32,014 bases of DNA, from contig JAHRVR010000122.1 in the NCBI GenBank assembly GCA_019090585.1, positions 1 to 32,014 on the forward strand. Direction: 5' to 3'. Position 1 is the first letter of the stretch. Every line of letters starts with the position of its first letter. The notes below the pieces were generated by a model. That model was not told the DNA's origin, ran no database searches, and saw only the letters and a list, made by a program, of their open reading frames with translations. Source of the DNA: Sphingomonadaceae bacterium. GTDB taxonomy: Bacteria > Pseudomonadota > Alphaproteobacteria > Sphingomonadales > Sphingomonadaceae. A program made the position numbers and the translations under genes. This document shows positions 7,578 through 29,604 of this stretch, one piece after another.

Positions 7578-7991
7578 ATGGGCATTCTCGAAGCGTTGAT
7601 AGGTCCGATCTCATCCATCATCGACAAGGTCATTCCAGATCCAGAGGCGCGAGCGAAAGCGAAGCTTGAGCTGCTCAGCCTGCAAAATACAAGCGAACTG
7701 AAAACACTCCAGACACGGCTATCCACGATCGTCACCGAGGCAGGCTCAAAGGACCCATGGACGAGTCGTGCCCGCCCAAGTTTCCTCTATGTGATGTATG
7801 CCCTGATACTTTGGGCCATCCCGATGGGGTTGCTGGCCGCCTTCAACCCCGGCGCGTCCCAAGCCATTGGCAAGGGCATGACCGATTATCTGGGCGCCCT
7901 TCCCGAGCCACTCTACGCGCTCTTTGGCACCGGCTATCTCGGCTATGCGGTCGTGCGGCAGTGGGGCAAGGTCAAGGGCAGCGACCGCTAA
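7578..7991 (+). CDS. 3TM-type holin-like family protein
   Basis: 137 aa: MGILEALIGPISSIIDKVIPDPEARAKAKLELLSLQ...WTSRARPSFLYVMYALILWAIPMGLLAAF...LYALFGTGYLGYAVVRQWGKVKG; resembles Holin_3TMs proteins. Confidence 0.75.
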   Translation: MGILEALIGPISSIIDKVIPDPEARAKAKLELLSLQNTSELKTLQTRLSTIVTEAGSKDPWTSRARPSFLYVMYALILWAIPMGLLAAFNPGASQAIGKGMTDYLGALPEPLYALFGTGYLGYAVVRQWGKVKGSDR

Positions 7992-9013: not shown

Positions 9014-9238
9014 TATTCCCCCCGGCGGCACGAAGACATCTGTAGATGCTCCGTTCCGGACGTTCATACATTTCAGATCGTTCGCTGCACGATAATATAA
9101 TTGTTCATAACGCGATCGTCCCGCTTTGCAACGCACCTGCAACGCGCTCTTCCCCAAAGCAACTGGATTGCTAGGGAAGGATGCGCTTTGTGCGCCAATG
9201 GCATCCGGCCAAAAACCGGAATCCGCCCTGGAGAATCG

Positions 9239-10906
9239 ATGCATTTCGACGATCGCCTGACCACTGTCCTAAAACAGCCTGTTTCAGGCAAGGCGATCGC
9301 GCGCATCCAGTATGTTCAGTTGATCGACCTGCTTGGAACCCTACCGAACGACGCGCAGGGACCGCTGGTGGATTCGGCTTATGACCGGCTGCTGGAACTG
9401 ACCCCCACGATAGACATGAAAAGCAGGGCACGCCTGTTGCGCGATTCGGGATTGCGCCTGCGCAACCCGAAGGTGCTTGCCCTGCTCGCGGAGAACGAAC
9501 CGCCCGTGGCATCTGCCGCCATTGCAGTGGCGGAGCTTGAGGAAGATCAATGGCTGGAGCTGATCCCGGCCCTGCCAGTCCGCTCAAGAGGCATATTGCG
9601 GCACCGCCGAAATCTTGGGGAAAAGATCGAAGCTCGGCTGGAACGGCTCGGAATTGCGGATCGAGGCTTGCCCCCGGGCAACGACAATGCGGACGCCGTG
9701 GCAATACCCGGGCAGGCGCGCGCTCCTGTATCCCACGAAACCACGGGAAGCCCCAATGGCATCGGCGCAATTGTCAGGCGGATCGAAGCCTACCGAAAGG
9801 AACACCCGGCAAATCCCGGACAATCCGGAATCGATGCACCGCGCCTTCCGCTTGGCGACGTCGAAGCCGGGTTTGCACATGACCAGCCCTGCAACTTCGA
9901 TTTTACGACGAATGCCAAAGGCCGGATTATCGGGGCCAACCCCGAAGTAGCACCCATGCTGATCGGTCTTGCACTTGCATCGCAGGGCAGCAAATCCAGA
10001 CGCGGCGCGGCAATGGATCTGGCCGGCGCAATTGGACTGCGCCAGCCCATCCACGGGCAGATCCTAACGATCAGCGGCGCGCCAGCAATCAGCGGCGACT
10101 GGCAGATCGACGCTGCCCCCCTGTTCAATGAACTGACATCGGCGTTCACCGGCTATACCGGCAGGGCGCGGCGCATGCCTGCTACCCCTGACGAGGTATC
10201 CCCGGCACGCCAAGAGGCAGACCGCATGCGGCAAGTGCTCCACGAATTGCGCAATCCTGCCGGAGCGATTCAGGTAAGCGCGGAGTGCATCCAGCAACAA
10301 GTGTTCGGTGACATCGCAAATGAATATCGTGCAATCGCCGCATCCATCGCCAGCGACACCGCGCTTGTCCTTGCAGGATTCGAGGAGCTTGAAAGGCTTG
10401 TAAAGCTGAACGCGGGCGCCATCGAAATTGAACCCGGTGTGGCCGATCTTGCCGCGACTGTGACAGCAACGGCTGCGCAGATCCATCACCATACCCAGCA
10501 GCGCGAGAGCGGCTTTGCACTTGCGCTGGGCACCGCGAAACAGCTGGTTGCGATGGACCACGCAGCGCTTGAGCGGCTAATCTGGCGCCTGCTTGCCGGA
10601 ATCGCGGGCGAGGCACAGGCAAAGGAAATGCTCGGGCTGTGCCTGGACAGTGACGACACAGCCGCCCAACTGAAGGTTGTACTGCCACAAAGCCTTGCCC
10701 ACCTGACCGACGATGAGCTTTATCAGGCGCAGCCCAAGGACCAGCCCCAAACATTGTCATCCGGCATGTTTGGCCTGGGATTCACTCTCAGGCTTGCGGC
10801 AGCCGAAGCCCGTGCGGCAGGCGGTTCACTACACCGTGAGGAAGGTCGGCTTGTTCTGACATTGCCTCAACCCTCGGCAGTTTCAGCAAAAATTAGTGAG
10901 GCTTGA
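9239..10906 (+). CDS. Soluble histidine kinase-like protein with DUF2336/HEAT-like N-terminus and degenerate ATPase domain
   Basis: Start at MHFDDRLTTVLKQPVSGKAIARIQYVQLIDLLG; helical repeat region (RARLLRDSGLRLRNPKVLALLAENEPPVASAAIAVAE), PAS-like middle, H-box-like MRQVLHELRNPAGAIQVSAE and GMFGLGFTLRLAAAEARAAGGSL near the C-terminus; no obvious transmembrane segment. Confidence 0.68.
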   Translation: MHFDDRLTTVLKQPVSGKAIARIQYVQLIDLLGTLPNDAQGPLVDSAYDRLLELTPTIDMKSRARLLRDSGLRLRNPKVLALLAENEPPVASAAIAVAELEEDQWLELIPALPVRSRGILRHRRNLGEKIEARLERLGIADRGLPPGNDNADAVAIPGQARAPVSHETTGSPNGIGAIVRRIEAYRKEHPANPGQSGIDAPRLPLGDVEAGFAHDQPCNFDFTTNAKGRIIGANPEVAPMLIGLALASQGSKSRRGAAMDLAGAIGLRQPIHGQILTISGAPAISGDWQIDAAPLFNELTSAFTGYTGRARRMPATPDEVSPARQEADRMRQVLHELRNPAGAIQVSAECIQQQVFGDIANEYRAIAASIASDTALVLAGFEELERLVKLNAGAIEIEPGVADLAATVTATAAQIHHHTQQRESGFALALGTAKQLVAMDHAALERLIWRLLAGIAGEAQAKEMLGLCLDSDDTAAQLKVVLPQSLAHLTDDELYQAQPKDQPQTLSSGMFGLGFTLRLAAAEARAAGGSLHREEGRLVLTLPQPSAVSAKISEA

Positions 10907-14354: not shown

Positions 14355-15305
14355 ATGAACTTGCGCCCGCTTCATCCGGCCTTTGCCGTCTGCATTGGCA
14401 TATTGGCAGCCATGCCTGCCGCTGCGCATGCGGCTGGCGCCTTCAGCCAGATACCGCAAGCCCTGATTCGCGCGGCAACTTACGCACAGCCCGCTTGCGG
14501 CGTTGCTGTCGCACCCGCAAGCGGGCTCGTCCGCTCTGCAATTTCCGTTAGTGCATCAAGCAAGGCGTCGGCCATACTTGGTGGCAGGCCCAGTGCTCTT
14601 GAACGCATGCGCCTCCAGCAAGCAGGAAATCTTGCAACTGCGCAGACCGCGCCCACGACAACCAGACTGAGCCCTAATTCGATCCGGTCCGCAGCAATCC
14701 CCGCATTTTGCCAGAACCTCGCACCTTCGCGCGCGTCCTTTGCGCCGTCGCTGGGCAGAATGCGCGAAAGCACTCAGACTTCTGATGATTTCCTCGCCAG
14801 CAAACGAATCCGCATTCGCCGCACCAGCTTCGACGCCCAATGGCGCCGGGTACGCAGCCAGAGACTCTCCCGCTCGACTGTAGCGAGCCTTGCCGCAGCG
14901 GTCCCGGGCCGGGTCAACACAGCCACGCTCCATGCCGTCAATGCATGGGCCAATGCCCGCATCCGCTACGTCGAGGACATCGAACTTTATGGAAAGTCCG
15001 ATTACTGGGCGAGCGCGAGAACCACGCTGCGCCGCAGGGCCGGAGACTGCGAGGACATCGCGATTGCCAAGATGCAGATTCTGGCGGCACTGGGCGTCTC
15101 ACGCTCCCACATGTATCTGACCGTTGCGCGCGATCTGGTTCGCAATACAGACCATGCCGTGCTGATCGTGAAACATGGCCGCAAGCACTGGATGCTCGAC
15201 AATTCGACCAATCAGCTGCTCGACGCAAAAGACAGTCACGACTACCGGCCGATCATGTCTTTCAGCAAGTCAGGCAAATGGCTGCACGGATACTCGCGGC
15301 TTTGA
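14355..15305 (+). CDS. LapG-like transglutaminase-like cysteine proteinase (BTLCP)
   Basis: Signal peptide-like MNLRPLHPAFAVCIGILAAMPAAAHAAG; catalytic-type motifs RAGDCEDIAIAK (Cys), NTDHAVLIV (His), HWMLDNSTNQLL (Asp); N-terminal WANARIRYVEDIELYGKSDYWASARTTL typical of the family. Confidence 0.9.
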   Translation: MNLRPLHPAFAVCIGILAAMPAAAHAAGAFSQIPQALIRAATYAQPACGVAVAPASGLVRSAISVSASSKASAILGGRPSALERMRLQQAGNLATAQTAPTTTRLSPNSIRSAAIPAFCQNLAPSRASFAPSLGRMRESTQTSDDFLASKRIRIRRTSFDAQWRRVRSQRLSRSTVASLAAAVPGRVNTATLHAVNAWANARIRYVEDIELYGKSDYWASARTTLRRRAGDCEDIAIAKMQILAALGVSRSHMYLTVARDLVRNTDHAVLIVKHGRKHWMLDNSTNQLLDAKDSHDYRPIMSFSKSGKWLHGYSRL

Positions 15306-15365
15306 ACGCCTAATCCAACGCTGCCTTGGTGACCTGGCTTCGGGCGGATGCCACCTGGCCCTCGC

Positions 15366-16658
15366 TCAGCGTTCCGTCAACGCCTCATCGAACGCCCGCA
15401 GCACGGGTTTGAGCATGTAAGCCATCACGCTCTTCCTGCCGGTGATAATCTCTACATCACAGACCATACCGGGCATAATCGGCAATTTGCGGCCGTTTCT
15501 TTCAAGAAAGGCTCGGTCAGTTTCCACCGAGACGGTGTAATAAGCCTTCCGCTCCACTTCATCGTAAATGCTGTCGGCGCTGATATTTCGCACACGGCCT
15601 TTCAGTCCGCCGTAAATCGAGAAATCATAAGCTGTTATTTTCACATTGGCCGGATCGTTTTCCTTGATGAACGCAATGTCCTTGGGATCAACCCGCGCCT
15701 CAACCAGCAATTTGTCGCCAAATGGCACGACCTGCATGATCTTCTCGCCAGCACTGAGGAAACCGCCGACGGTCGTCACTTGAATGTCATTGACCAGTCC
15801 GGTCACCGGCGCACGAACCTCGCTACGCTCGACCGTAGCGGAAGCGCCTTTTATCGTTTCCTTGTTCACCGCAATCCGGGTGGAGATCTCGCTACGCTCG
15901 GCAAGCGCCTGCTGACGGAAATCGAAGCGCGCTTCGCTCAACTGTGACCGGGCTTCGGAAATCGCAGCCATGGCCCGTGCAACGCCCTGCCGGGCCGCGG
16001 CCAGCCTGCCCCTTGTATCCACAACATCGCGCTGCGCCGTCATCAGCTCGGTCTTGGGAATAATCCCCTTTTTGGCCAAGGGAGCGAGCATATCGACCTG
16101 CTCCTGTGCCAGTTTGATGCTGGCCTGAAGCGCGGAAACAGTCGCCTGCCCTTCCCGCAAATCCCGGCGGCGCTGTTCTACAACTGCGGCCAGAGCATCT
16201 TCCCGGCTACGCGCGGTGGCCCGGCGCATTTCGGAAAGCCTTGCTTCTTCCTCGCAGGCAGAGCCTTCCTGACATGCCTGCCCCTCCCCGGTGCCTTCCT
16301 GCTCAAGCCGGGACGCACGCGCTTGCAGGCGCTCGTTTTCCGCTTTCAGCGATCCAAGCTGTGCGGAAGATTGCGGATCATCGAGCCGAACGAGCAATTG
16401 GCCCTTTTTTACCATCTGGCCCGGACGCACGAGAATTTCCTTGATAGTCGAAGGGGAGCCCGCCTGGACAACCTGTACTTTGCTTGAAGGGATAACCTTG
16501 CCCAACCCGCGCGTCACTTCATCAACCTGAGCAACCGCAGACCACAAAATGACCAGCACCATGCCCAGTGCAGTCAGCGCGATAAGCTTGCGGCTGGCGT
16601 CCCAGTCCTCGACACCAAGCCATTCACGGCATTGTAGATGCGCATCATCGGACGGCAA
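15366..16658 (-). CDS. HlyD-family type I secretion periplasmic adaptor subunit
   Basis: WDASRKLIALTALGMVLVILWSAVAQVDEVTRGLGKVIPSSKVQVVQAGSPSTIKEILVRPGQMVKKGQLLVRLDDPQ, coiled coil, EVRAPVTGLVNDIQVTTVGGFLSAGEKIMQVVP, ending MAYMLKPVLRAFDEALTER. The ORF is open to 16838; I favour an in-frame TTG at 16658, overlapping the hydrolase stop by 14 nt. Confidence 0.88.
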   Translation of the reverse strand: MPSDDAHLQCREWLGVEDWDASRKLIALTALGMVLVILWSAVAQVDEVTRGLGKVIPSSKVQVVQAGSPSTIKEILVRPGQMVKKGQLLVRLDDPQSSAQLGSLKAENERLQARASRLEQEGTGEGQACQEGSACEEEARLSEMRRATARSREDALAAVVEQRRRDLREGQATVSALQASIKLAQEQVDMLAPLAKKGIIPKTELMTAQRDVVDTRGRLAAARQGVARAMAAISEARSQLSEARFDFRQQALAERSEISTRIAVNKETIKGASATVERSEVRAPVTGLVNDIQVTTVGGFLSAGEKIMQVVPFGDKLLVEARVDPKDIAFIKENDPANVKITAYDFSIYGGLKGRVRNISADSIYDEVERKAYYTVSVETDRAFLERNGRKLPIMPGMVCDVEIITGRKSVMAYMLKPVLRAFDEALTER

Positions 16659-17721
16659 CCGTCTTTGGATTGCCTGCAAGCGCCTCTTGCCGGCTGGGCT
16701 GTGTAGACTCCCGCGTCTCGGCAACAATCTGGTCATAGCGAGAACTGCTCTGGGTCGGATCAGGTATCGACAGGCGCCACTGCTTGGTGACATCAAGCCT
16801 TCCACCAACATCATTCCCGGCATGACGGTCTGTAACATGGGGCGTCACTGTAAGGCCGGGAACCAGCGGCGCGTCTGCATCAGCGTTCACGCGGTCCCGC
16901 AAGGCCGCAAAATCGATGAAAGGCATACGCTCAACACCGCTATATTGGGCATTGAAAGCGGCCGAACGCCCCCAACCGCCCCGGAAGCGATAGAAGATGT
17001 GACGGCCAAGCTGGGTGATCTTTCCAAGCTGGAAGGCCCATTTCGGCAAGACATAATCGGCATGGTAATGCGTGGCCGTGCCCACGCTCTTCTCAACCCG
17101 CCCGGCCAGTGCTTCCTTTGCCGCCTTTCCCGCTTCACGCCATGGGCCCGGCATCGGCTTGCGCAAAAGTGATCCGTCGCATGTAAAACTGAACTGACAC
17201 CCTGTGCGCCGCTGCGATCCATCATAGACTACACCGCAAACGCTGGACGGGTAAGCCTTGTGTCGCAACCGGTTGAGGACGACCTGCGCTACTGCGCGCC
17301 GTCCCTCCAGCGGCTCATGGGCTGCCTCGTAATAGATAGCTTGCGCCAGGCATTTCTGCGCTGTGGCCTTGCTCGGCATGCCTGCCGCGCCAAGCTCAAA
17401 CGCGCCGATAGTCTCCACCGCAAGCCTAGAGATGGGGAGCTTCGCGTTGCGTTCCTGCGCGTCCCCGCCCTGAACAAGAATCTGTTCTTCGTCATCGACC
17501 GTCATGTCCGAAACTTCGCGCAGCTCTTCTTGTGTGATCGCTGACGCGGGCTGACCGCCCACAGTGAAAACGCCAGGAAACGCAAATCCGGCCACAGCGA
17601 GAACAGCCGTAGCGCCAACCGCCAGGACTCCTCCGGCTGCAAACAACCGCGGCTTGAGGGAGAGCTGCTTCTCCGAGCCGAATGCAGCATCCGCCTCATT
17701 TGTGGTTTTGCGTGGGATCAT
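16645..17721 (-). CDS. SleB/CwlJ-type cell wall hydrolase with N-terminal membrane segment
   Basis: QKCLAQAIYYEAAHEPLEGRRAVAQVVLNRLRHKAYPSSVCGVVYDGSQRRTGCQFSFTCDGS...THYHADYVLPKWAFQLGKITQLGRHIFYRF is the Hydrolase_2 core; hydrophobic LFAAGGVLAVGATAVLAVAGFAFPG near N-terminus. ATG at 17721 (alternate TTG at 17727). Confidence 0.92.
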   Translation of the reverse strand: MIPRKTTNEADAAFGSEKQLSLKPRLFAAGGVLAVGATAVLAVAGFAFPGVFTVGGQPASAITQEELREVSDMTVDDEEQILVQGGDAQERNAKLPISRLAVETIGAFELGAAGMPSKATAQKCLAQAIYYEAAHEPLEGRRAVAQVVLNRLRHKAYPSSVCGVVYDGSQRRTGCQFSFTCDGSLLRKPMPGPWREAGKAAKEALAGRVEKSVGTATHYHADYVLPKWAFQLGKITQLGRHIFYRFRGGWGRSAAFNAQYSGVERMPFIDFAALRDRVNADADAPLVPGLTVTPHVTDRHAGNDVGGRLDVTKQWRLSIPDPTQSSSRYDQIVAETRESTQPSRQEALAGNPKTVAVR

Positions 17722-17723
17722 GA

Positions 17724-19856
17724 TCAAACCTTCTGGCCCGCGCTGGCTGACGCGATGACCTCGTCACGCGGACCGTCGGCAACAATTCGCCCCTTGTCCA
17801 GTACGATCAGGCGGTCGCACACGCTGAAAAGCGCCGGGCGATGGGTCGAAATGATCAATGTCTGATCGGGTGTCAGGGATTGGGACAACCGATCCACAAA
17901 GAGTTTCTCTGTCTGGCTGTCCATCGCCCCGGTAGGCTCATCAAGGAACAAGAGCCGGGATGGCGAGACGAAGGCACGGCTCAAGGTCAAGAATGCCCTC
18001 TGCCCGCCCGAGAGGCGAATACCGCTCTCTCCGACGGCGCGGTCAAAACCGCCAGCGTCGCGAGACAAGAATTCGTCCGCGCCAATACGCCGCAATGCCT
18101 CGATCAGCTCCTCGTCGCTGGGACGGTCTGAACCAAGGCTGAGATTGTCCTTGATTGTCCCGCTGAACAAGTTGGCGTCCTGGCCGACGAACCGCATCGC
18201 CATTCGCAGATCCTGAGGCCTATATTGCTGACTGTCGATGCCGTCGACCAACAGCGCGCCTTCGCTTGGCTGATAGAGCCCGCACAGGATCCGCCCGAGT
18301 GTGGACTTGCCCGATGCGACGCGCCCGATGACGGCAATGCGTTCGCCCGGATTGATTTCAAGATTTAGTTCGCTGAGCGAAGGGCCCGATGCATCGGGGT
18401 ATGAAAAGCTCAGCCGCTCCAGCTTGAGGTGAGCCGAGCGCACTTGCGGCGCAACCGATGCGCTGCCCATGCGCCGCTCATCGCTTTCGCCCCAAAGTGT
18501 CTGGATCGATTCGAGCGCATGCAACGCCTGCTTTCCGCGCGTCAGCAGGAAGGCAAATTGCCCCGCCGGGGCAAGCGAACGCGAGGCCAGCATGACAATG
18601 GCGATGATCGCCCCCATCGTGATCTTGCCCGCAGCAAACAGGTAATAGCCGCCTACGACGAGGGATATGCTGGTGAGCTGCTGACACGTGGCCGCAAGGC
18701 CGATGGCCGTGGAACTGATATCGCGCAGCCGCCGTTCCGATTGCGCGCCAAGCTCTGCAAGCCGGCGCCAGCGCCCGAGCATGGTGCCTTCGCCAGCCAC
18801 ACTCTTTAGCGTTTCGATGCCGGAGATCGATTCGACCAGCAATGTCTGCTGCAATCCGCGGTCCGCCTGCGCCTCTATCGCCGCTTCGGACACTTTGCGT
18901 TGCAAGCGCAAACCCATCACCAGCATCGCTGCGGCTATGACGATTGGCACCAACGCCAGCCAGCCCGCGATATAAGCTATCAGTGCGATGAAGAAGACCA
19001 TGAAGAACAGATCGACGATCAGGACGATCGTCGTCGACGCGAAGAAATCGCGCACAATGGCGAATTCACTAACCCGGGCGACCATGTTTCCGGTGTAACC
19101 CTTGCGGGCAGCAAGCGGCGCCGAAAGCACTTTCGAATAGATTTTCTGCGATAGCTTGAGGTCCAGATCGCGCCCCAGTCCATCAAGCACCTTGGTCCGC
19201 GCGCGTCGCAGGGAATAATCCAGAATGAAGGCAATGAGAACACCCGAAGCCAGAACCCAGAGCGTGGCCTGCGCGCGGTTGGGGATCACCCGATCATAGA
19301 CGTTCATGGTGAACAGCGGCAGAGCCAGTGCCAGCACGTTGATGAGCATTGAAGCCACCAGCACCGGCCTGAAATCGTGGCGCAGCTTGTAAACTTCGCT
19401 CCAGAACCAGTGCGTTCGCGCATTTTCCTGCCACGGCTGGCCTTCGGACCGTATCGCCGTCGCATCGCCAAAAACCGTGGCCATCCAGCCGGTATATTCC
19501 GCCTGAACTTCTCCGGCAGGCTCCCACCGGGCTTCGTCCGACGCAGGCCGCCAGACCAACATGTCTCCTTCGCGATAGTCTTCAATGACGGCAAGAGCGC
19601 CGCCTTCAAGAGAAACGATCGCGGGATAGTGCTCAACCTGGCGTGGCAACTTGGGCAGTTTGCGCGCGTCGCAATTGAGGCCGAGAATCTCGGCAGCCGG
19701 CTCCACCTGATGCCGGGGGAGCTGGCCATCGCCGCCGCGTACAAGGCTGGAGAACAGTGTAGGCGCAAAACCCACGCCGAAGCGATCCGCCAACCTGTCC
19801 AGACAGGCGATCAGCGGATCGGCGTGGCGCGCTTCATGGTCTGGCCCATCGGCCAT
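17724..19856 (-). CDS. Type I secretion system permease/ATPase (LapB-like, with degenerate C39-like domain)
   Basis: 710 aa; Walker A GRVASGKSTLGRIL, signature RLSGGQRAFLTLSRAF, Walker B RLLFLDEPTGAMD; ABC membrane region FTMNVYDRVIPNRAQATLWVLASGV; N-terminal domain has no catalytic Cys in the expected place. Confidence 0.94.
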   Translation of the reverse strand: MADGPDHEARHADPLIACLDRLADRFGVGFAPTLFSSLVRGGDGQLPRHQVEPAAEILGLNCDARKLPKLPRQVEHYPAIVSLEGGALAVIEDYREGDMLVWRPASDEARWEPAGEVQAEYTGWMATVFGDATAIRSEGQPWQENARTHWFWSEVYKLRHDFRPVLVASMLINVLALALPLFTMNVYDRVIPNRAQATLWVLASGVLIAFILDYSLRRARTKVLDGLGRDLDLKLSQKIYSKVLSAPLAARKGYTGNMVARVSEFAIVRDFFASTTIVLIVDLFFMVFFIALIAYIAGWLALVPIVIAAAMLVMGLRLQRKVSEAAIEAQADRGLQQTLLVESISGIETLKSVAGEGTMLGRWRRLAELGAQSERRLRDISSTAIGLAATCQQLTSISLVVGGYYLFAAGKITMGAIIAIVMLASRSLAPAGQFAFLLTRGKQALHALESIQTLWGESDERRMGSASVAPQVRSAHLKLERLSFSYPDASGPSLSELNLEINPGERIAVIGRVASGKSTLGRILCGLYQPSEGALLVDGIDSQQYRPQDLRMAMRFVGQDANLFSGTIKDNLSLGSDRPSDEELIEALRRIGADEFLSRDAGGFDRAVGESGIRLSGGQRAFLTLSRAFVSPSRLLFLDEPTGAMDSQTEKLFVDRLSQSLTPDQTLIISTHRPALFSVCDRLIVLDKGRIVADGPRDEVIASASAGQKV

Positions 19857-19895
19857 GGCTTACCCTCTTTCGAACTGCCAAGCTGCCCGTTGCAG

Positions 19896-21293
19896 TCAGG
19901 GCACCGTGCGGTACTGAAGCTCCGCAGGTGCGGAAGGCCCGTAGTTATACTCCTCGCGCTCATTCTCACCGGCCCCCGCACCCGGCTCGATCTCGAGGCC
20001 GGAAAGGAAACGGTTGGTCGCCGCGAGTGTCTGATACTGGGCGAATATCCTTGAAAATTTCGCCGACTCCAGACGGACTTGCACACTGTAGCGCGTATTC
20101 TGTGCATCCAGCACATCGAGCAGCGAACGTCTCCCGACGTTGAACTGGCTGCGATAGGATAGCAGCAAGTCATCACTGACCGTGCTCTGGCGGGCAAGTT
20201 GCTCGGTCACGCGGGTCTGCGTCTTGAGCTGCGACCAGGCATTGCGAACATCTTCCTCAGCCTCGCGCTCCACTTCATGAAGCCGATAGCGAGTCCCGCT
20301 CGCGCGGCGCACCATCTCCTGATACTTCGCGCGATTAATACCACCATCGAAGATGTTCCAGCGCATGAAGACACGGGCCTGCAGGTCGGTTGTTTCCCCC
20401 CTGAAGCCGTCGATATCCTCACCGTATCGGCCCCTCGCATCGACGCCAATCTCAGGATAAAGATCGCCCTTGGCGCTGCGGGACAGCGCATGCGCTGCGT
20501 CGACATCAGCCTTGGCCTCGCGGACTCGCGGATTGTTGGCACGTGCAATCCCGACAGCCTCGTCAAGGTTGGTCGGCATCCGGGCCGCGAGTTCCGGCGG
20601 CAACTGGACCTGGGAAATGTGGAGACCAGTCAGCTTTTGCAGTGCGTTCTGCGATTCTGTCAGCGACTGTTCGGCCTGGGTCTGGCGAACAAGTGCAGCC
20701 TGAAGACGTTCCTCAGCCTGCTGCTGGTCAGCAATTGAGATCGACCCCTGTTCAACACCGCTGGACAAGTCGCCCACCAGCACCCGGTGGAAACCGACAT
20801 TATCCTGACTGGCCGCAACAACGCGTTGCTGCAACAGCACGCCAAGGTATTGGCGCGCGACCTGCAATGCCACGAACTCGGAGCGTTCGAGGACACGAAG
20901 CGATGCCCCGTCGACCCGCGCGGCCTGACGGTGCAATTCACCGCGGCGCCGGCCAAAATCAAACATAACCCATTCCGCGCTGCCTTCGGCCCCGATCGGA
21001 TAGAGTTCATTGTCGGCAATGCCGAGCGATCGCCTTGTCGGGTTCTTCAGGCTGCGGATTCCCGCAGACCCTTCAATGTCCGCACGTGGCAGGAACAGGC
21101 CCTGTGCCTGCTTGCGTTCGAATTCGATCGCTTCCTTGTTGTATTGCGCCTGCGCGATGCTCGGATTTGCGCTCATCGCAACCGCAATCGCTTCTTCGAG
21201 GCTCACGGCTCCGCCGCCCTGGGCAAGTGCCGGCATGGCAGTTCCGGAAAGCAGAACTGCGGCACCGGCGGCGAAGAGTTTGTTCTTCAGCAT
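19896..21293 (-). CDS. TolC-family outer membrane protein (type I secretion)
   Basis: 465 aa; signal peptide MLKNKLFAAGAAVLLSGTAMPALAQ, AIAVAMSANPSIAQAQYNKEAIEFERKQAQGLFLPRADIEGSAG, YRSQFNVGRRSLLDVLDAQNTRYSVQV. Confidence 0.93.
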   Translation of the reverse strand: MLKNKLFAAGAAVLLSGTAMPALAQGGGAVSLEEAIAVAMSANPSIAQAQYNKEAIEFERKQAQGLFLPRADIEGSAGIRSLKNPTRRSLGIADNELYPIGAEGSAEWVMFDFGRRRGELHRQAARVDGASLRVLERSEFVALQVARQYLGVLLQQRVVAASQDNVGFHRVLVGDLSSGVEQGSISIADQQQAEERLQAALVRQTQAEQSLTESQNALQKLTGLHISQVQLPPELAARMPTNLDEAVGIARANNPRVREAKADVDAAHALSRSAKGDLYPEIGVDARGRYGEDIDGFRGETTDLQARVFMRWNIFDGGINRAKYQEMVRRASGTRYRLHEVEREAEEDVRNAWSQLKTQTRVTEQLARQSTVSDDLLLSYRSQFNVGRRSLLDVLDAQNTRYSVQVRLESAKFSRIFAQYQTLAATNRFLSGLEIEPGAGAGENEREEYNYGPSAPAELQYRTVP

Positions 21294-21313
21294 GATCCTA
21301 ACTCCTTGCCAAT

Positions 21314-22018
21314 TTACTGAACGGTAACTTCAACCCGACGGTTCGTCGGATTGCGTTCGCCGTCCAAGGTCGGCACTTTCGGCTCGCCTTCACCCCGGCC
21401 AGATACTGCCATCTGGCCAGCGGCAAGCCCCTTGGCTCCCAGAAGGTCAGCAATCGCGTTGGCGCGGGCGACAGAAAGAACGTCATTATAAGCGTCACTG
21501 CCCGAGCGATCGGTATGCCCGGTCACGACAAGACCGGACCATCCACAGCCGTTGAAATTGTTCACGACCGAATCCAGAGTTTGCGAGGCATCGACCCCCG
21601 GCACGGCGCTGTCCCAATCGAAGAAGACAATACCGGCGACGGGCTGACTACACAACGTATCTGGCACCAGCGGTGGAGGCGGTGGCGGCGGCGGAACAAA
21701 TTTCATCCGCTCTGCAGCATCGACGCATTTGCCAATGCTGACCGGATCCTTGGTGCTGCTCTTCAGAAAACCAAGGGCGATGCCGCACTGGGCCTTTGCC
21801 TGACTGGCCCACATATACTGGGAAGTATCCGCCGATACGACGCCTGCATCCTGAGTCAGGGCAAGTGCCGCATCATAGCGCTGCTGAACTTCCCCACGCA
21901 GCGAGGCTATGCCCATGGCCATAAGGTCATCCGCCGTTGTCTGCGCCGCTGCCACACCGGGCAACGCCAGAGCTATCACGGCAGCGCCCAGGGCCATGCC
22001 TGAACGGTTAGATCGCAT
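21314..22018 (-). CDS. OmpA-family protein with polyproline linker
   Basis: Signal peptide, PPPPPPPPLVP linker, and C-terminal GIVFFDWDSAVPGVDA...LVVTGHTDRSGSDAYNDVLSVARANAIADLLGAKGL...GRGEGEPKVP...NPTNRRVEVTVQ (OmpA-like peptidoglycan-binding domain). Confidence 0.93.
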   Translation of the reverse strand: MRSNRSGMALGAAVIALALPGVAAAQTTADDLMAMGIASLRGEVQQRYDAALALTQDAGVVSADTSQYMWASQAKAQCGIALGFLKSSTKDPVSIGKCVDAAERMKFVPPPPPPPPLVPDTLCSQPVAGIVFFDWDSAVPGVDASQTLDSVVNNFNGCGWSGLVVTGHTDRSGSDAYNDVLSVARANAIADLLGAKGLAAGQMAVSGRGEGEPKVPTLDGERNPTNRRVEVTVQ

Positions 22019-22050
22019 TTTCAGTCCCCTTATTGCAGTCTCGATGCATC

Positions 22051-25000
22051 CTAGGCAGCGGCCGCAGCCGCACTTAACTCCTCGGCCATATCATTGAATT
22101 CAAATGCTCCCTGGCCAACAGCAGGCACGCTATCGACGTCAGTTGCAAGCAGTAACTGCAACCCATCAATACTGCCTTCCGTTGAATCGGCCTCCCCGCT
22201 GCCAAGTTCGTCGATCAAGTGATCAACGAAGTTCTCCCCCTCAGCCTCGACGATTGCTTCACCAAGATAGTCGAGATCGCCGGAGGCGTCTTCGACCGGC
22301 GTTACCTGTGAGAGCAACAGCAGGCTCTGCATGACTTCGCCGCCATCCGAGTTGCCGCCGGAAACAAGGTCGCTCGATGCCTCCACATGGCTTTCCGAAG
22401 GCGATTCGTCTCCGGAGCCGCCGGAATAATGATCGATAAGATCAGCCAATCCAGCATCCGACATTTCGCCATCGGAAACTTCCGAGGAAGAGCTTCCGCC
22501 ATCGCCAGCGAGTTCGCCGGTGGCATCGCCGAGATATATCTGCGAACTGATACCCGCCTCTTCGCCACCATCACTGGCGACGGTTTCGGACAGCGCCGCC
22601 ATGGGCACGTCCCGGGGCGAACTGTCAGTTGTAACCGTTCCCTTTGCCTCCGCATCAGGTGCCTCGACCAGCAGCGCGCTCGCCATCACGCCCGCTGCGA
22701 TCGCAGCATTGGTAATTTCAAGGCTGCGTGTCTCGATCTTCTGCGCGCCGACTGCAAAGCTGGCATCGGCCAGAACGCCAGTGGCGCCGCCAGCCGTTGT
22801 AAAGGCAGCCTCTCCATGGACGGTCACATCGCCATCCGCAGCACTGTAGCCCTCGCCATCCGAGGTCAGCTCAATCGAGACGATGCCAAGATCATCCAGC
22901 GAGCGGAACTCGCCTGCATCAGTAACGCCATCGCTATCCGCATCCTGCCAGACGCCAAAGTCGCCCCATGCCGCATCGGCAGAGGTCAGAACGCCATCGT
23001 CATTGCCGTCGTAGGCTTCGCGCACGCCTTCGAGGTCAGTCGCAGCGCCGGGCGCGTCGTCGGAAAAGACAATGTCCAGACCCTGCGCCGTCTGACGCGC
23101 CAACAGCCCGTCATCTGCACCGGCCCAGGCCGTCGCGACCAGACCTGTCCCATAATCGAAGGTTACACCTGCATCCTGCGAAAGGAATTCAACGCCGTCA
23201 CCATCGAGATCGAGAACGACGGGATTCACCACCACCGGATTAAGGGTGATATCCAGATCGCTGGTCGCAGTCTTGTCACCGTCTTCGTCCATAATCAGGA
23301 GGGGAACGGAGAACTCGACCGGGCTTTCGGTTTCGACAGCAGCACCAAAGCCACCGAACTTGATAGAATTACCGCCGTCTAGCGGGTCTTCATTCGTGGC
23401 TTCAAGCGTCGTGTATCCGTCCGCGGTGTAGATCGCGATTGTCGTCGTCAGCTGTTGATTGCTGTTGCCGTTGGCGCCTGTAACATTGGTGACCAGGACG
23501 CTCAGGCCATCAAGCTGATAACCGAAAGTCTCGCCGCCGACAGACACGTTTTGAGATAATCCCGTGGGCGTCAAAAGCGTGCTCTCGTCATTATTGTAGA
23601 AAATGACGATATTGGTGATCGCCTCTTGATCACCGTCTCCGACGACGTTGTTGGCATCGTCAGCCCCTTCGTCATCGAAAGCTTCGAAGCGCATGGTCGT
23701 ACCAGACGTCGATTGGCGGAAGCTGATTGTTGCCCCGTTGGTCGTCCAATGTTCGTCGAAAGAATGGCCGTTGGTTCCGCCGATCACGTAGTTGGAGTTC
23801 GGCGGGCTTCCCGTAAGATCGACAACATAATCGAGACGGAACCCCTCGCCAGGATCAACACTTTGACCGCCCCCCACACCGCCCAGGATATTGCTGGTAT
23901 TGATTGTATCGGCTGATAGCGGCGTGATCAGCACGTCCTGGCTGTTATCGTTGACAGGAGCATCACCGCCGCCGTCACCCTGCCCGGTCGGAACGATTCC
24001 GAACCAGGCTCCATTGCCGCCGACAAGATCAAAGGCCCCAGGGTCATAGTCGATCTGGACGTTGCTATCGACCGTGCCGAAGGTGTCATCCATGTCGATG
24101 GTGTAGTTCGAATTCGCCTGGTCGAGCGTAATTGTGAAAACCGTATTCGCGCCGACTTTGCCATACAAAATCTGCCCACTCGCGGACACGTCATAAATGA
24201 TTGGCTGGAAGCCCGAGGTGAGGCCACTGCTGGCTCCTTCAAGGCTTGGATCGAAAATGACGGAGCCTCCGTCGGCACCGATATTGTTGAGGATGTTGCC
24301 ATCCCCGGGCGCGACATCGAGACTGCCCATCACCGTGCCGTCCACCGAATTTTCAAGTTCGGCAGCTTCGACAACGAAAGAAGACGGCGCATCGTCATCG
24401 AACGTGATCTGAAGCAACACATCTGAAGCCGACGGAGAGCTATCGAAGTCAACGACGTTAAACTTGATCGTCGCAACTGCATCATTGACGGTCAGGTTCT
24501 CGGTATCGTCGTCCGATTCTCCGTCACGCGTTGCATGCAGAACATTATCGAGCAACTCGACCGTATAAGTGCCGGCTGCCGTATCGGTCAGCGTCACTTT
24601 GAATAAGTCCCCGCGTGGTCCTGTCGCGGTCAGTATCGTGCCCCCGCCAGACAGTGCAAAGGAGACCGTCTCCTGACCCACAGTTGGAGTGGCGGTCAGC
24701 ATGTCGGAATGGAAACTCACCGTCACCGGCGTATCGCTGCCCGGCGAGAAATTCAGTGCGCCAGAGAACGTCTTCTCGCTCGAAGCAAGACCATCGGCAT
24801 CGTCATCCACCGTCCCCGATGACTGATCCTGGCCTTCATTCGTGTCGAGGTCATTCACAGTCGAGTTTGGATTCCCGCCAGGGAGCCCATCATCGTCGAC
24901 GAGCGCATAAGCCGTTCCGCCCGAAGGCGTTGAATCTTCGCCAATATTTACAGTTATTGTCGCGGTCGATGGATCGCCGTCGCCATCGGTAATCGTATAA

Positions 25001-28000
25001 GTGAAGCTGTCTGCGCCCACCGCGTTCTGATTTGCCGTGTAAGTGAAAGTGCCATCGTCATTGTAGACCGCCGTGCCCTGACTGGGACCGCTGGCGACGA
25101 CGACCGAGCTGGGTATAGCGTTAGTCGTATCCACTCCGTCCGCGCCAAACACGTCGTTAACAAACGCAGAGTTGATCTGATAGGCAACGCCTGCCTCTAC
25201 GTTAAAGATCCCGTCATCGTTGGCGGTTGGCACGTCGTCGACAACCTGAACGACAAGCGTATCTGCGTCCGAATCGCCATCGATGTCAGTCAGACTGACT
25301 GCGAGGTGATCAAATAGCGAGTTCTGGCCATTTGCATTCGAGTGCGCTTCGTTGTCATCCAGCGTGTACTCGTAAGTGATCTCGCCAGTGCCCGCGTTGT
25401 AACCGGTAAACTCGATCGTATTGCCAAGCTCAGACGTCGTGCCCGTGGCATTGGCCTGAAAGACACCGTTGATGAATACGTTGATCCCGTCGACAACAAC
25501 ATCATCGACACCGTCCGGTGCGGAAATGAAGAAACTGCCCGTCACGGTCGTCGATTGAGACTGATCTGATCCCTCAGGGATCACCAGATCATCTTCGTCA
25601 ACTATCGCATCCCCGCCTTGCAGCTCGGGCACCAATCCCGTGATCACCGCCGGATTGTCCGGTGGAGGCACGAAAGTATCCCCAACCAGAATGGTCAGCG
25701 TGGTCGTTGACAAATCGCCATCGGAATCACGGATAGAATAGACAAATACGTCCTGCACATCCGCGGTCACGCTGCCAGCCTGGTAGGAATAGCTGCCATC
25801 GGCATCCAGCGTGAGTGTGCCGTAGAGCCCGACAATCACTCCGCCCGTTCCGGTTGTTACGGGCGTAGTCGTATCGCCGCCAGCGGCGCGCACGCCAACA
25901 ACACCGCCCGCAGGCGAAGTCACATCGGGGCCATCCGCGCCGAACGCATCGTTGGGCAGGACATTGCCCAGGACAGTGCCCAACTCATCGACACTGTTGA
26001 AATCCGCACGGGCAATCGGAACATCGTCGACGATATCGACTGTGATCGTGCCCTCGATCACATTGCCATTGTCGTCGCTCGCTTCATAAGTGAAGACGTC
26101 TTGCGCCGGCGCTGTCTCGTGGCCGTCATTGGCATGCGGCAGATTGTCGACAGGAGTGGTCAGCGTGTACGTGTAGCTGCCATCGGCATTGATCTGGATA
26201 AGACCGTAAGTGCCTGTCGCAGTCCCGACGATTGCAAAACTTGTTGCACCGGGCACGTCGAGCGCACCCGAAACCGTTTCCAGTGTATTTCCCGGGGCCG
26301 ATCCCGTCACGATACCGGGTGCCAGATCGTCGCCGGTCTGGAAGAGATCCAGCGACGGCTCGTACACGGTCACGTTCTCGTCATCGGCAATGAGCGTAAC
26401 ATCGTCGACCGTAATCGTCAGTGTCGTGGTCGAACGGTCTCCGTCATCATCCTCGATCGTGTAGACAAAGATTTCCACTACATCTTCGGTAATGGTGCCC
26501 GGCGCCGTGACGTAAGTATAACTGCCATCGGCATTGAGGATCAGCGTGCCGTAATCGCCGAAGATTTCGGTCCCGGTCCCGGTCGTGACATCAGTTGTCG
26601 TATCGCCATCAGCCTTTCGCACGCCGATAACGCCGCCCAAAGGCGCAGTCGTTGCCGGGCCGTCAGCACCGAACGCGTCGTTGGGCAGGACATTGCCTAC
26701 AGCAGTGCCGCCTTCGCTGACGGTATCGACATCGGCAGTGGCGACCGGGATGTCGTCAATAATATCGACTGTGATGGTGCCTTCGACAGTGTTGCCGTTC
26801 GCGTCCGTCGCCAGATAAGTGAAGACATCGCCAGCTGGCTGGGTTTCCGTCCCGTCATCCGCATGCGGCAGATTGTCGAAACGGGACGTCAGAGTATAGA
26901 TAAAGTTCCCATCATTATCTATTGAAATTAAGCCATAAGTTCCTTCACTGGAGCCAACAATCTCAAATGCAGCCGCACCTGCGATCACCACGGTGCCACC
27001 AACAGTTTCATCGGTGCTGCCCGGTGTCCGCCCGGTTGTGTCTCCGGGCGCAAGATCGGCGCCATCCTGATTGAGATCCAGCGCCGCCTCATCAACAATA
27101 ACGCCAACATCATGCTGGAGCAGCGTGATCGCGGAAATATCGATAGTGAGCGTGGTGGTCGAAATGTCCCCCTCACCCTCATCGCCATCTTCGATCGTAT
27201 AGACAAATACGTCGACCACATCGGTATCGATAATGTTCGCGTCAGACTTGTATGTGTAACTGCCGTCAGCGTTGAGCACCAACGTACCGTAAAGACCGCG
27301 TATTTCGGTGCCTGTGCCAGTTTCGACGGGAGTTTCCGTATCGCCATCAGCAGCACGGACGCCGATTACACCGCCCTCAGGCGCAGTCGTTGCAGGACCG
27401 TCAGCACCAAACTCATCATTGGGCAGGACATTCCCGGTGGCCGTTCCGCCTTCGCCGACAGAATCGAAATCTTCAACGGCGGTTGGAATGTCATCGACGA
27501 TCTCAATCGCCAGAACATCCTCGGCAACGTCACCATCGGGGTCGGTCACAACGATGGGAAATGAAACCTCCGAACCGCCGGGATCAAGCGTATTGTCGTT
27601 GAGCGTATACTCGTAAGTGATCGATCCGGTCTTGGTGGCATCATCGAAGGTATAACCAGTGATGATCAGCGTGCCCACTTCATCAGACGACACGACCTGC
27701 GGCAACCCGTTGGGATCGATGACAACGCCATTGATCGTGACCGTTTCGACACCATCAAGCGAGGTGAAATCGATCGTGTTAGCCGTGATCTCCACGTCGC
27801 TTTCATCCTGCGAACCAGGAGATTCAGAATCGCGGATGACTGTGCTGGAAGCAAGACCGGCCTCCTCCACGCGGGTACCGGAGGCAATTTCGCCAACCCG
27901 CGGAACAAAAGTAATTTCCGGCTCATTGTTGATCGCCGAAAAAACTTCCTCGTCCTCGCTCTCGGGGAACGCAAGCTCAGTATATGGAAGCAGATTGCCC

Positions 28001-28395
28001 AAGCCATATGCAGGCTGGATCGGAGCGGCTGGATCAAAGAAATTCCCGCCGGAACTCTGCGGATTACCAGCAGCGGGCTGCGGCTGGCTTTCATTGAGAT
28101 AGGCAGCAAGGTTGAGCGGCGGAACAGCCACACCATCGACAACCAGAACCGGCACAAATATGGCGCCATCTGGGATGATATAAGTCTTGCCTTCTACTTC
28201 GATGACAAGATCGCGCCCGCGAACGGCAACGTCGTCAAGCGTCGCACCTTCGGGCAGCGCCACGATATTATCGGCATCGGGAAGCAGCGGAATTGCACCG
28301 GCACGGCCTGTCGCAGCTGCACCACTTGCGATTTCCAGCCCGAGATTGGAGTTCTCGGTATCGCTATCTCGATCAACGGGGCGTTCGTAGTCCAT
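22051..28395 (-). CDS. Giant (2114 aa) retention-module/VCBS-type type I secreted adhesin (LapA-like)
   Basis: N-terminal module IVALPEGATLDDVAVRGRDLVIEVEGKTYIIPDGAIFVPVLVVDGVAVPPLNLAAYL, tandem VCBS/cadherin-like repeats (VGNVLPNDAFGADGPATTAP...GTYGLI.I..DGSYTYTL), T1SS-143/DUF5801-like segments, C-terminal PVVLDLDGDGVEFLSQDAGVTFDYG; first gene of a type I secretion operon. Confidence 0.92.
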   Translation of the reverse strand: MDYERPVDRDSDTENSNLGLEIASGAAATGRAGAIPLLPDADNIVALPEGATLDDVAVRGRDLVIEVEGKTYIIPDGAIFVPVLVVDGVAVPPLNLAAYLNESQPQPAAGNPQSSGGNFFDPAAPIQPAYGLGNLLPYTELAFPESEDEEVFSAINNEPEITFVPRVGEIASGTRVEEAGLASSTVIRDSESPGSQDESDVEITANTIDFTSLDGVETVTINGVVIDPNGLPQVVSSDEVGTLIITGYTFDDATKTGSITYEYTLNDNTLDPGGSEVSFPIVVTDPDGDVAEDVLAIEIVDDIPTAVEDFDSVGEGGTATGNVLPNDEFGADGPATTAPEGGVIGVRAADGDTETPVETGTGTEIRGLYGTLVLNADGSYTYKSDANIIDTDVVDVFVYTIEDGDEGEGDISTTTLTIDISAITLLQHDVGVIVDEAALDLNQDGADLAPGDTTGRTPGSTDETVGGTVVIAGAAAFEIVGSSEGTYGLISIDNDGNFIYTLTSRFDNLPHADDGTETQPAGDVFTYLATDANGNTVEGTITVDIIDDIPVATADVDTVSEGGTAVGNVLPNDAFGADGPATTAPLGGVIGVRKADGDTTTDVTTGTGTEIFGDYGTLILNADGSYTYVTAPGTITEDVVEIFVYTIEDDDGDRSTTTLTITVDDVTLIADDENVTVYEPSLDLFQTGDDLAPGIVTGSAPGNTLETVSGALDVPGATSFAIVGTATGTYGLIQINADGSYTYTLTTPVDNLPHANDGHETAPAQDVFTYEASDDNGNVIEGTITVDIVDDVPIARADFNSVDELGTVLGNVLPNDAFGADGPDVTSPAGGVVGVRAAGGDTTTPVTTGTGGVIVGLYGTLTLDADGSYSYQAGSVTADVQDVFVYSIRDSDGDLSTTTLTILVGDTFVPPPDNPAVITGLVPELQGGDAIVDEDDLVIPEGSDQSQSTTVTGSFFISAPDGVDDVVVDGINVFINGVFQANATGTTSELGNTIEFTGYNAGTGEITYEYTLDDNEAHSNANGQNSLFDHLAVSLTDIDGDSDADTLVVQVVDDVPTANDDGIFNVEAGVAYQINSAFVNDVFGADGVDTTNAIPSSVVVASGPSQGTAVYNDDGTFTYTANQNAVGADSFTYTITDGDGDPSTATITVNIGEDSTPSGGTAYALVDDDGLPGGNPNSTVNDLDTNEGQDQSSGTVDDDADGLASSEKTFSGALNFSPGSDTPVTVSFHSDMLTATPTVGQETVSFALSGGGTILTATGPRGDLFKVTLTDTAAGTYTVELLDNVLHATRDGESDDDTENLTVNDAVATIKFNVVDFDSSPSASDVLLQITFDDDAPSSFVVEAAELENSVDGTVMGSLDVAPGDGNILNNIGADGGSVIFDPSLEGASSGLTSGFQPIIYDVSASGQILYGKVGANTVFTITLDQANSNYTIDMDDTFGTVDSNVQIDYDPGAFDLVGGNGAWFGIVPTGQGDGGGDAPVNDNSQDVLITPLSADTINTSNILGGVGGGQSVDPGEGFRLDYVVDLTGSPPNSNYVIGGTNGHSFDEHWTTNGATISFRQSTSGTTMRFEAFDDEGADDANNVVGDGDQEAITNIVIFYNNDESTLLTPTGLSQNVSVGGETFGYQLDGLSVLVTNVTGANGNSNQQLTTTIAIYTADGYTTLEATNEDPLDGGNSIKFGGFGAAVETESPVEFSVPLLIMDEDGDKTATSDLDITLNPVVVNPVVLDLDGDGVEFLSQDAGVTFDYGTGLVATAWAGADDGLLARQTAQGLDIVFSDDAPGAATDLEGVREAYDGNDDGVLTSADAAWGDFGVWQDADSDGVTDAGEFRSLDDLGIVSIELTSDGEGYSAADGDVTVHGEAAFTTAGGATGVLADASFAVGAQKIETRSLEITNAAIAAGVMASALLVEAPDAEAKGTVTTDSSPRDVPMAALSETVASDGGEEAGISSQIYLGDATGELAGDGGSSSSEVSDGEMSDAGLADLIDHYSGGSGDESPSESHVEASSDLVSGGNSDGGEVMQSLLLLSQVTPVEDASGDLDYLGEAIVEAEGENFVDHLIDELGSGEADSTEGSIDGLQLLLATDVDSVPAVGQGAFEFNDMAEELSAAAAAA
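25690..27510 (-). repeat. Intragenic tandem repeats (about 2.5 units of ~730-740 bp) in the adhesin gene
   Basis: The TTGGGCAGGACATT block recurs with gttgggcagg at 25951, gttgggcagg at 26680 and attgggcagg at 27418, i.e. spacings of 729 and 738 bp (243 and 246 codons); flanking protein sequence repeats colinearly. Confidence 0.9.
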
Positions 28396-28746: not shown

Positions 28747-29604
28747 TTAAGGTTTTGATGAGGCTAGAATAACGGCGTCCCGGATCGGGTCATATCGAAC
28801 ATCAAACCCTGCGGCGCGTAGCGCGTCAAAGTCCAGATAGCTGTTATCGCCATAAGGGGACGCGATCGCGGAAAGGCTTTTCCTGATTCGCTGATTATTC
28901 ATGGCTTCGGCCAGTTGCCGTGAATTCACCAGAATGGTCGTGTCGTTGACTATGCGCAGCGTGACCTTGCCCTTGTCCACGCCATCGACATGCAACAATT
29001 TCATAATTTCGATCACACCGGCGGGGAGACCCGGCTGGCCGAGATTGTAATCCACCGCCAGCATGCCGTCCGGCGTGCGGCGCGTCGATGGATCCGCAGA
29101 TGGATCCATCGGTGCGTCCAAAGAGCCACTCGGCTTCGTGCCCGGCATGGCAAAAGCACTGAATATCTCGGAAAAGCTGCGCGCATCATCCTGCGGCCGG
29201 CCGTCTGCATCGCCCCCCTCCCGATCACCTTCGGCAAGCGCTTTCTCAACTTCAACGCGGTGTGCGCCCGCTCCATAGTCAACATCGCCGGAAATGAGTG
29301 CGGGGTCAGACATCCGATCCGCGAGAAAATCAAAGCGAGAAGGGTAAGATTCGCTCTTCTTCCGGTCTCCACCCGCTGACCGGTCATCAGTGCGCAGATC
29401 GGAACCGCCCAGCCCCAGCCGGTACGGCAAGGAACCAATCACGGCCGACACATCACCCAAGATCCTGGAAGCCTTCGCGCGCAGCCCCGAGCCGTCCCCG
29501 GCAACCATCACAACAGGCGCGGCAACAATAACCAGTGCCAGCATTGCGGCAGCCAGTCTGGTCTTCAGGCCCGATACGGGCTGATGAGCATATCGGCCGC
29601 TCAT
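28747..29604 (-). CDS. Uncharacterised protein with N-terminal membrane segment and compact C-terminal domain
   Basis: 285 aa: hydrophobic LKTRLAAAMLALVIVAAPVVMVAG, long polar linker, C-terminal GKVTLRIVNDTTILVNSRQLAEAMNNQRIRKSLSAIASPYGDNSYLDFDALRAAGFDVRYDPIRDAVILASSKP; same strand as the adhesin operon. Confidence 0.8.
   Translation of the reverse strand: MSGRYAHQPVSGLKTRLAAAMLALVIVAAPVVMVAGDGSGLRAKASRILGDVSAVIGSLPYRLGLGGSDLRTDDRSAGGDRKKSESYPSRFDFLADRMSDPALISGDVDYGAGAHRVEVEKALAEGDREGGDADGRPQDDARSFSEIFSAFAMPGTKPSGSLDAPMDPSADPSTRRTPDGMLAVDYNLGQPGLPAGVIEIMKLLHVDGVDKGKVTLRIVNDTTILVNSRQLAEAMNNQRIRKSLSAIASPYGDNSYLDFDALRAAGFDVRYDPIRDAVILASSKP

Follow-up and report, generated by a model that had tools for sequence, protein, structure and literature searches.

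The window analyzed here, a 32,014-nucleotide stretch of DNA from a Sphingomonadaceae bacterium, contains a compact minus-strand block of adhesin and type I secretion system (T1SS) genes faced by a gene for a LapG-like protease. Reading along the minus strand, the block encodes a large T1SS adhesin of 2114 residues (22051..28395), an OmpA C-terminal-domain protein (21314..22018; PF00691, 1.4e-12), a TolC-family outer-membrane channel resembling LapE (19896..21293; PF02321, 1.1e-43; TIGR01844, 9.7e-60, just below its cut-off), a T1SS ABC permease-ATPase of the LssB/LapB type (17724..19856; TIGR03375, 706.6 bits, cut-off 693.1), a SleB-like cell-wall hydrolase (Hydrolase_2, 16645..17727; PF07486, 7.6e-26; structures 4f55 and 4fet), and a HlyD/LapC-like T1SS adaptor (15366..16658; TIGR01843, 1.5e-101). 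The BTLCP (LapG-like) cysteine protease P0001, 316 residues long, is encoded convergently on the plus strand (14355..15305; PF06035, 3.4e-21). The first-pass annotation had named domain searches of all seven proteins as a check on its gene assignments; Pfam and NCBIfam searches return the family it gave for each protein, at the place it gave. Its distance between the convergent ends is also confirmed by measurement, the BTLCP and hlyD stop codons lying 60 bp apart.

The genes of the block are tightly packed, in agreement with the earlier description of gaps of about 40 bp or less, or overlaps: 32 bp separate the adhesin from the OmpA-like gene, 20 bp the OmpA-like gene from tolC, and 39 bp tolC from the ABC gene, which itself overlaps sleB by 4 bp. 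The remaining junction could be refined. The longest hlyD reading frame (ATG at 16838) overlaps sleB by 194 bp, an artefact of choosing the longest frame, as relatives start much later. Judged from those relatives, the true start is probably the TTG at 16658, with an overlap of about 14 bp. Promoter scanning (7 sites against 6.5 expected) and terminator-like sites, just slightly more frequent than chance, were of no help.

The adhesin carries VCBS, T1SS-143, Big_9 and cadherin repeats or domains and scores 196.4 bits against NF045619 (BapA/Bap/LapF; cut-off 180). It has no cysteine, 372 acidic against 39 basic residues, and EF-hand-like motifs near its C-terminus, and inspection of the sequence finds neither an RTX nonapeptide nor an obvious signal peptide; this composition and these features would suit a T1SS substrate. 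At the C-terminus (22051-22450), relatives share a loose IIDHF...LLD...DDAAALAAxA pattern and an alanine-rich end without RTX repeats, possibly the secretion signal.

The N-terminus contains a conserved domain (residues 44-106, minus strand 28078..28266), seen in an alignment of relatives and co-occurring with the BTLCP, which is a putative periplasmic plug. Searches for the LapA retention module (NF033682) found it neither in the adhesin and its relatives nor elsewhere in the genome, and a profile of the adhesin N-terminus has no match among solved structures. A single-sequence model of the region (pLDDT 47) is too poor for a fold search. The BapA prefix (NF033677) does not match the window adhesin, and it matches 5 of 12 related N-termini weakly (best E 6.6e-4). 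These comparisons suggest a domain other than the LapA retention module, weakly resembling the BapA prefix.

Directly after this domain lies PAAG (residues 107-110, minus strand 28066..28077), a candidate BTLCP cleavage site between Ala108 and Ala109. LapG prefers a helix ahead of its cleavage site, and a low-confidence helix is predicted at residues 93-103, ahead of PAAG. LapG and DvhG are proven to cut at the di-alanine of [T/A/P]AAG (PMC13090378), and PAAG itself is the proven site of Vibrio cholerae LapG on FrhA (PMC6890996). Among the adhesins of the 16 genomes found to carry the locus (see below), 11 have PAAG, three PEAG (L056, L057 and L085) and two no AAG (L058 and L062). The BTLCP active site is intact even beside the five adhesins lacking an exact [T/A/P]AAG; in these, either the protease has a different specificity or the adhesin is uncut at that place. 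A PAAG-type motif has a chance of about 6% of occurring in the first 162 adhesin residues, so the argument for cleavage rests on position and conservation. That the position of this candidate site is conserved without being invariant is where the cleavage claim is weakest.

The BTLCP has a probable signal peptide and a long N-terminal extension ahead of its catalytic domain (residues 188-312). Alignment to 4u65 and 4fgo identifies the catalytic triad as C232, H267 and D282 and shows the calcium-site Asp/Glu residues to be kept; GDCE, the active His and the LD aspartate are conserved in the BTLCPs of all 16 genomes. Its best structural matches, by sequence and by fold, are these two structures, the LapG proteins of Pseudomonas and Legionella, and the AlphaFold model of the catalytic domain is mostly above pLDDT 90. 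Against the LapG equivalog model NF045674, the protein reaches 85.4 bits where the cut-off is 320. No other BTLCP that the searches could find is present in the assembly, which is 92% complete. Within the extension (14355-14900), relatives conserve two stretches, SKAAAILGG-x-x-SxLE and DFLASKRI-x-I-x-x-TxFDxDWxRV.

Genomic neighborhood analysis (tblastn of the window proteins) reveals 11 related loci in which the BTLCP gene is convergent to hlyD, followed by sleB, with the ABC, TolC, OmpA and adhesin genes in the window order wherever the contig is long enough. The full order is seen in Novosphingobium, Erythrobacter, other Erythrobacteraceae, Allopontixanthobacter and further Sphingomonadaceae. 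Because 11 related loci keep it, the arrangement is not due to chance. One genome (G043) retains the order adhesin-TolC-ABC-SleB-HlyD with a BTLCP gene nearby and no detected OmpA gene. Another (G036) has its BTLCP gene beside the adhesin N-terminus at a contig end, and the adhesin C-terminus and T1SS genes on a different contig; this genome contains five BTLCP genes (L017, L027, L031, L033 and L034), one alone of which lies beside the adhesin N-terminus.

Close relatives of P0001 (E < 1e-30) occur in 16 of 101 family genomes, representing 16 genera, and only distant BTLCPs in six more. The profile of the adhesin N-terminus matches strongly (E < 1e-48) in exactly those 16 genomes and, apart from one marginal match (6e-4), in none of the remaining 85. 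As this profile was built from 12 N-termini, all taken from the 16 genomes, those 12 match by construction. The independent test is provided by the four genomes outside the profile (G036, G043, G066 and G087), which are all positive against 0 of 85, a result with a probability by simple counting of about 1 in 2.4 million when relatedness is ignored. A single-sequence SleB search of the 101 genomes ranks the same 16 best (E <= 2.7e-72, the next at 5.8e-66), with an E-value cut chosen after the data were seen. The components are scattered unevenly: G029, the one further species sampled from the window's genus, has neither the BTLCP nor the adhesin N-terminus. Across 290 alphaproteobacterial genomes, BTLCPs are present in 92, nearly all without the adhesin N-terminal domain, to which only three marginal matches were obtained; among the matches listed, none beyond the window's own genome covers the long BTLCP N-terminal segment.

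The two peptidoglycan-linked proteins set the block apart from the Pseudomonas fluorescens Lap system. The SleB-like hydrolase, which has a hydrophobic N-terminal segment ahead of its domain and the conserved Glu, is a fixed component of the block and is absent from the described Lap system; the OmpA-like protein has a signal peptide and a proline-rich linker. In a literature search with most subscription journals outside its coverage, no paper joined SleB with T1SS terms, and none of the papers listed for sphingomonad genera mentioned LapG.

Upstream of the adhesin, at a distance of 351 bp, lies the gene for P0008 (minus strand 28747..29604), an exported protein and possible accessory with no Pfam or NCBIfam match. 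Relatives (E < 1e-12) occur in 10 of the 101 genomes, namely nine of the 16 BTLCP genomes and one of the 85 others. Within the nine, they adjoin the adhesin in four, lie 13-15 kb away in three and are located elsewhere in two; one is just upstream of the BTLCP gene (L045:9091-9849), and others are at L053:6774-7436 and in L120-L129. Because two of the three profile rows besides the window were themselves taken from locus-linked relatives, this association is a lead, not a result. In several genera, Tad/Flp-like proteins recognized by eye (CpaA, CpaB, CpaC, TadB/C and TadD) are encoded directly upstream of the adhesin (L052, L055, L056, L058, L059, L136 and L138; none noted in the window), suggesting a surface-attachment island. 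Elsewhere in the window, a lone gene-transfer-agent holin family protein (7578-7991; PF11351, 6.7e-29) adjoins a type II dehydroquinase, and a 601-residue protein (9101-10906) looks by eye like a histidine kinase core (HELRNPAGAIQ), with no Pfam match at 0.001.

The Pseudomonas Lap system is normally controlled by LapD. The periplasmic domain of LapD, LapD_MoxY_N (PF16448), has no match at the locus or anywhere in its own genome (92% complete, 249 contigs). In the 101 family genomes, it gives three weak matches, one alone in a locus-bearing genome (G066), and the locus-bearing genomes covered by this search are mostly complete. Among six EAL matches in the window's own genome is a CHASE2-like protein with a degenerate GGDEF and an EAL domain (contig 60). 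This protein, the best LapD-like candidate, was rejected as a LapD substitute: it does not co-segregate with the locus, occurring in 7 of 16 locus genomes and 39 of 85 others.

Compared with the P. fluorescens Lap system, the locus shares the LapB-type ABC protein, the HlyD adaptor, the TolC-like channel, the large adhesin, a periplasmic BTLCP with a Cys-His-Asp triad and calcium site, and a di-alanine site after the N-terminal domain. It differs in that neither LapD nor the NF033682 retention module could be detected, in its added SleB and OmpA-like proteins, and in its BTLCP, which bears a long N-terminal extension and is encoded convergently to the exporter genes. In outline, the locus resembles the biofilm-associated Lap system of Pseudomonas, minus the usual LapD switch. 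Because the searches for LapD and the retention module were negative and the BTLCP falls short of the LapG equivalog cut-off, it is not assigned to LapADG, and the first-pass description of a complete Lap system does not hold. The accompanying proposal of a LapG-like protease with the adhesin as its substrate fares better: PAAG, the intact catalytic and calcium sites, the LapG fold and the co-occurrence all favor it, although the system around the protease is not a standard Lap one. The BapA/Bap/LapF adhesins share with this one the NF045619 match of the whole protein and, in 5 of 12 related N-termini, the weak BapA-prefix likeness; unlike them, it has a LapG-type site and a BTLCP encoded alongside. 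LapF is not known to be cut by LapG. 

The Dvh system of Desulfovibrio vulgaris (DvhA, DvhG and DvhD; PMC13090378) also pairs a T1SS adhesin with an adjoining BTLCP, has a [T/A/P]AAG site and a long segment ahead of the catalytic domain, and has no standard-type LapD. Whereas Dvh encodes the dCache-PAS-HD-GYP receptor DvhD next to these genes, no receptor of that type was found beside the BTLCP among the window genes scanned. In V. cholerae, FrhA and CraA are likewise BTLCP-cut adhesins, FrhA at PAAG and CraA with T1SS-143 repeats like the adhesin here, but LapD is encoded beside LapG there (PMC6890996).

Taken together, we consider it likely that the locus encodes a two-step T1SS adhesin system in a variant form that belongs to the Sphingomonadaceae and has no recognizable LapD. 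In the proposed mechanism, the ABC-HlyD-TolC exporter would thread the adhesin C-terminus first through TolC, and the conserved N-terminal domain would remain in the periplasm as a plug, keeping the adhesin surface-bound. The outer-membrane channel is probably anchored by the OmpA-like protein in the peptidoglycan, which the SleB-like hydrolase probably remodels around the assembly. Once active, the periplasmic BTLCP probably cuts the adhesin loose at PAAG, between Ala108 and Ala109, whereupon the adhesin would slip out and the cell detach. Control of the protease would not run through a recognizable LapD.

Three other readings have to be weighed against this one. The adhesin could be a constitutive surface protein of the Bap/LapF type, with the BTLCP maturing it or trimming a stub during or after export and no signaled release. 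The NF045619 score, the weak BapA-prefix matches at the N-terminus and the lack of a detected receptor to switch the protease all speak for this, whereas the BTLCP gene runs in the opposite direction and would have a promoter of its own, and PAAG follows the N-terminal domain, its position in retention-type adhesins; we think this reading unlikely. An ordinary LapADG system, whose LapD was not assembled or is too diverged for detection, would fit the incomplete, 249-contig assembly and the six EAL matches, the CHASE2-like protein among them. Against it stand the near-absence of LapD_MoxY_N from the family, including the mostly complete locus genomes, the independence of the CHASE2-like protein from the locus and the likewise absent retention module, and we rate it as quite unlikely. 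That the BTLCP cuts some other protein, its adhesin neighborhood being merely historical, would explain why five of the 16 adhesins lack the exact motif beside proteases with intact active sites, and why most alphaproteobacterial BTLCPs occur without the adhesin domain. Yet this BTLCP type and the adhesin N-terminus are found in the same 16 genomes, and in 11 genera PAAG sits where it would be expected; we regard this last reading as highly improbable.

A bolder form of the favored two-step model, which we put forward as a speculative and rather doubtful extension, is that a LapD-independent release machine evolved in the Sphingomonadaceae. In it, a BapA-prefix-like plug would stand in place of the LapA retention module, the T1SS would require a peptidoglycan hydrolase of its own, and the BTLCP would be controlled by an unrecognized factor in the periplasm, from the P0008 family or elsewhere.

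If the Sphingomonadaceae locus does function as a two-step adhesin system, regulated shedding of giant adhesins would reach a large family that includes bacteria of water, of soil and of fouled membranes. It would do so without a recognizable LapD, and the protease would then have to be switched another way. The fixed place of a SleB hydrolase in the operon raises the further question of whether T1SSs with giant surface-anchored cargo need local peptidoglycan remodeling.
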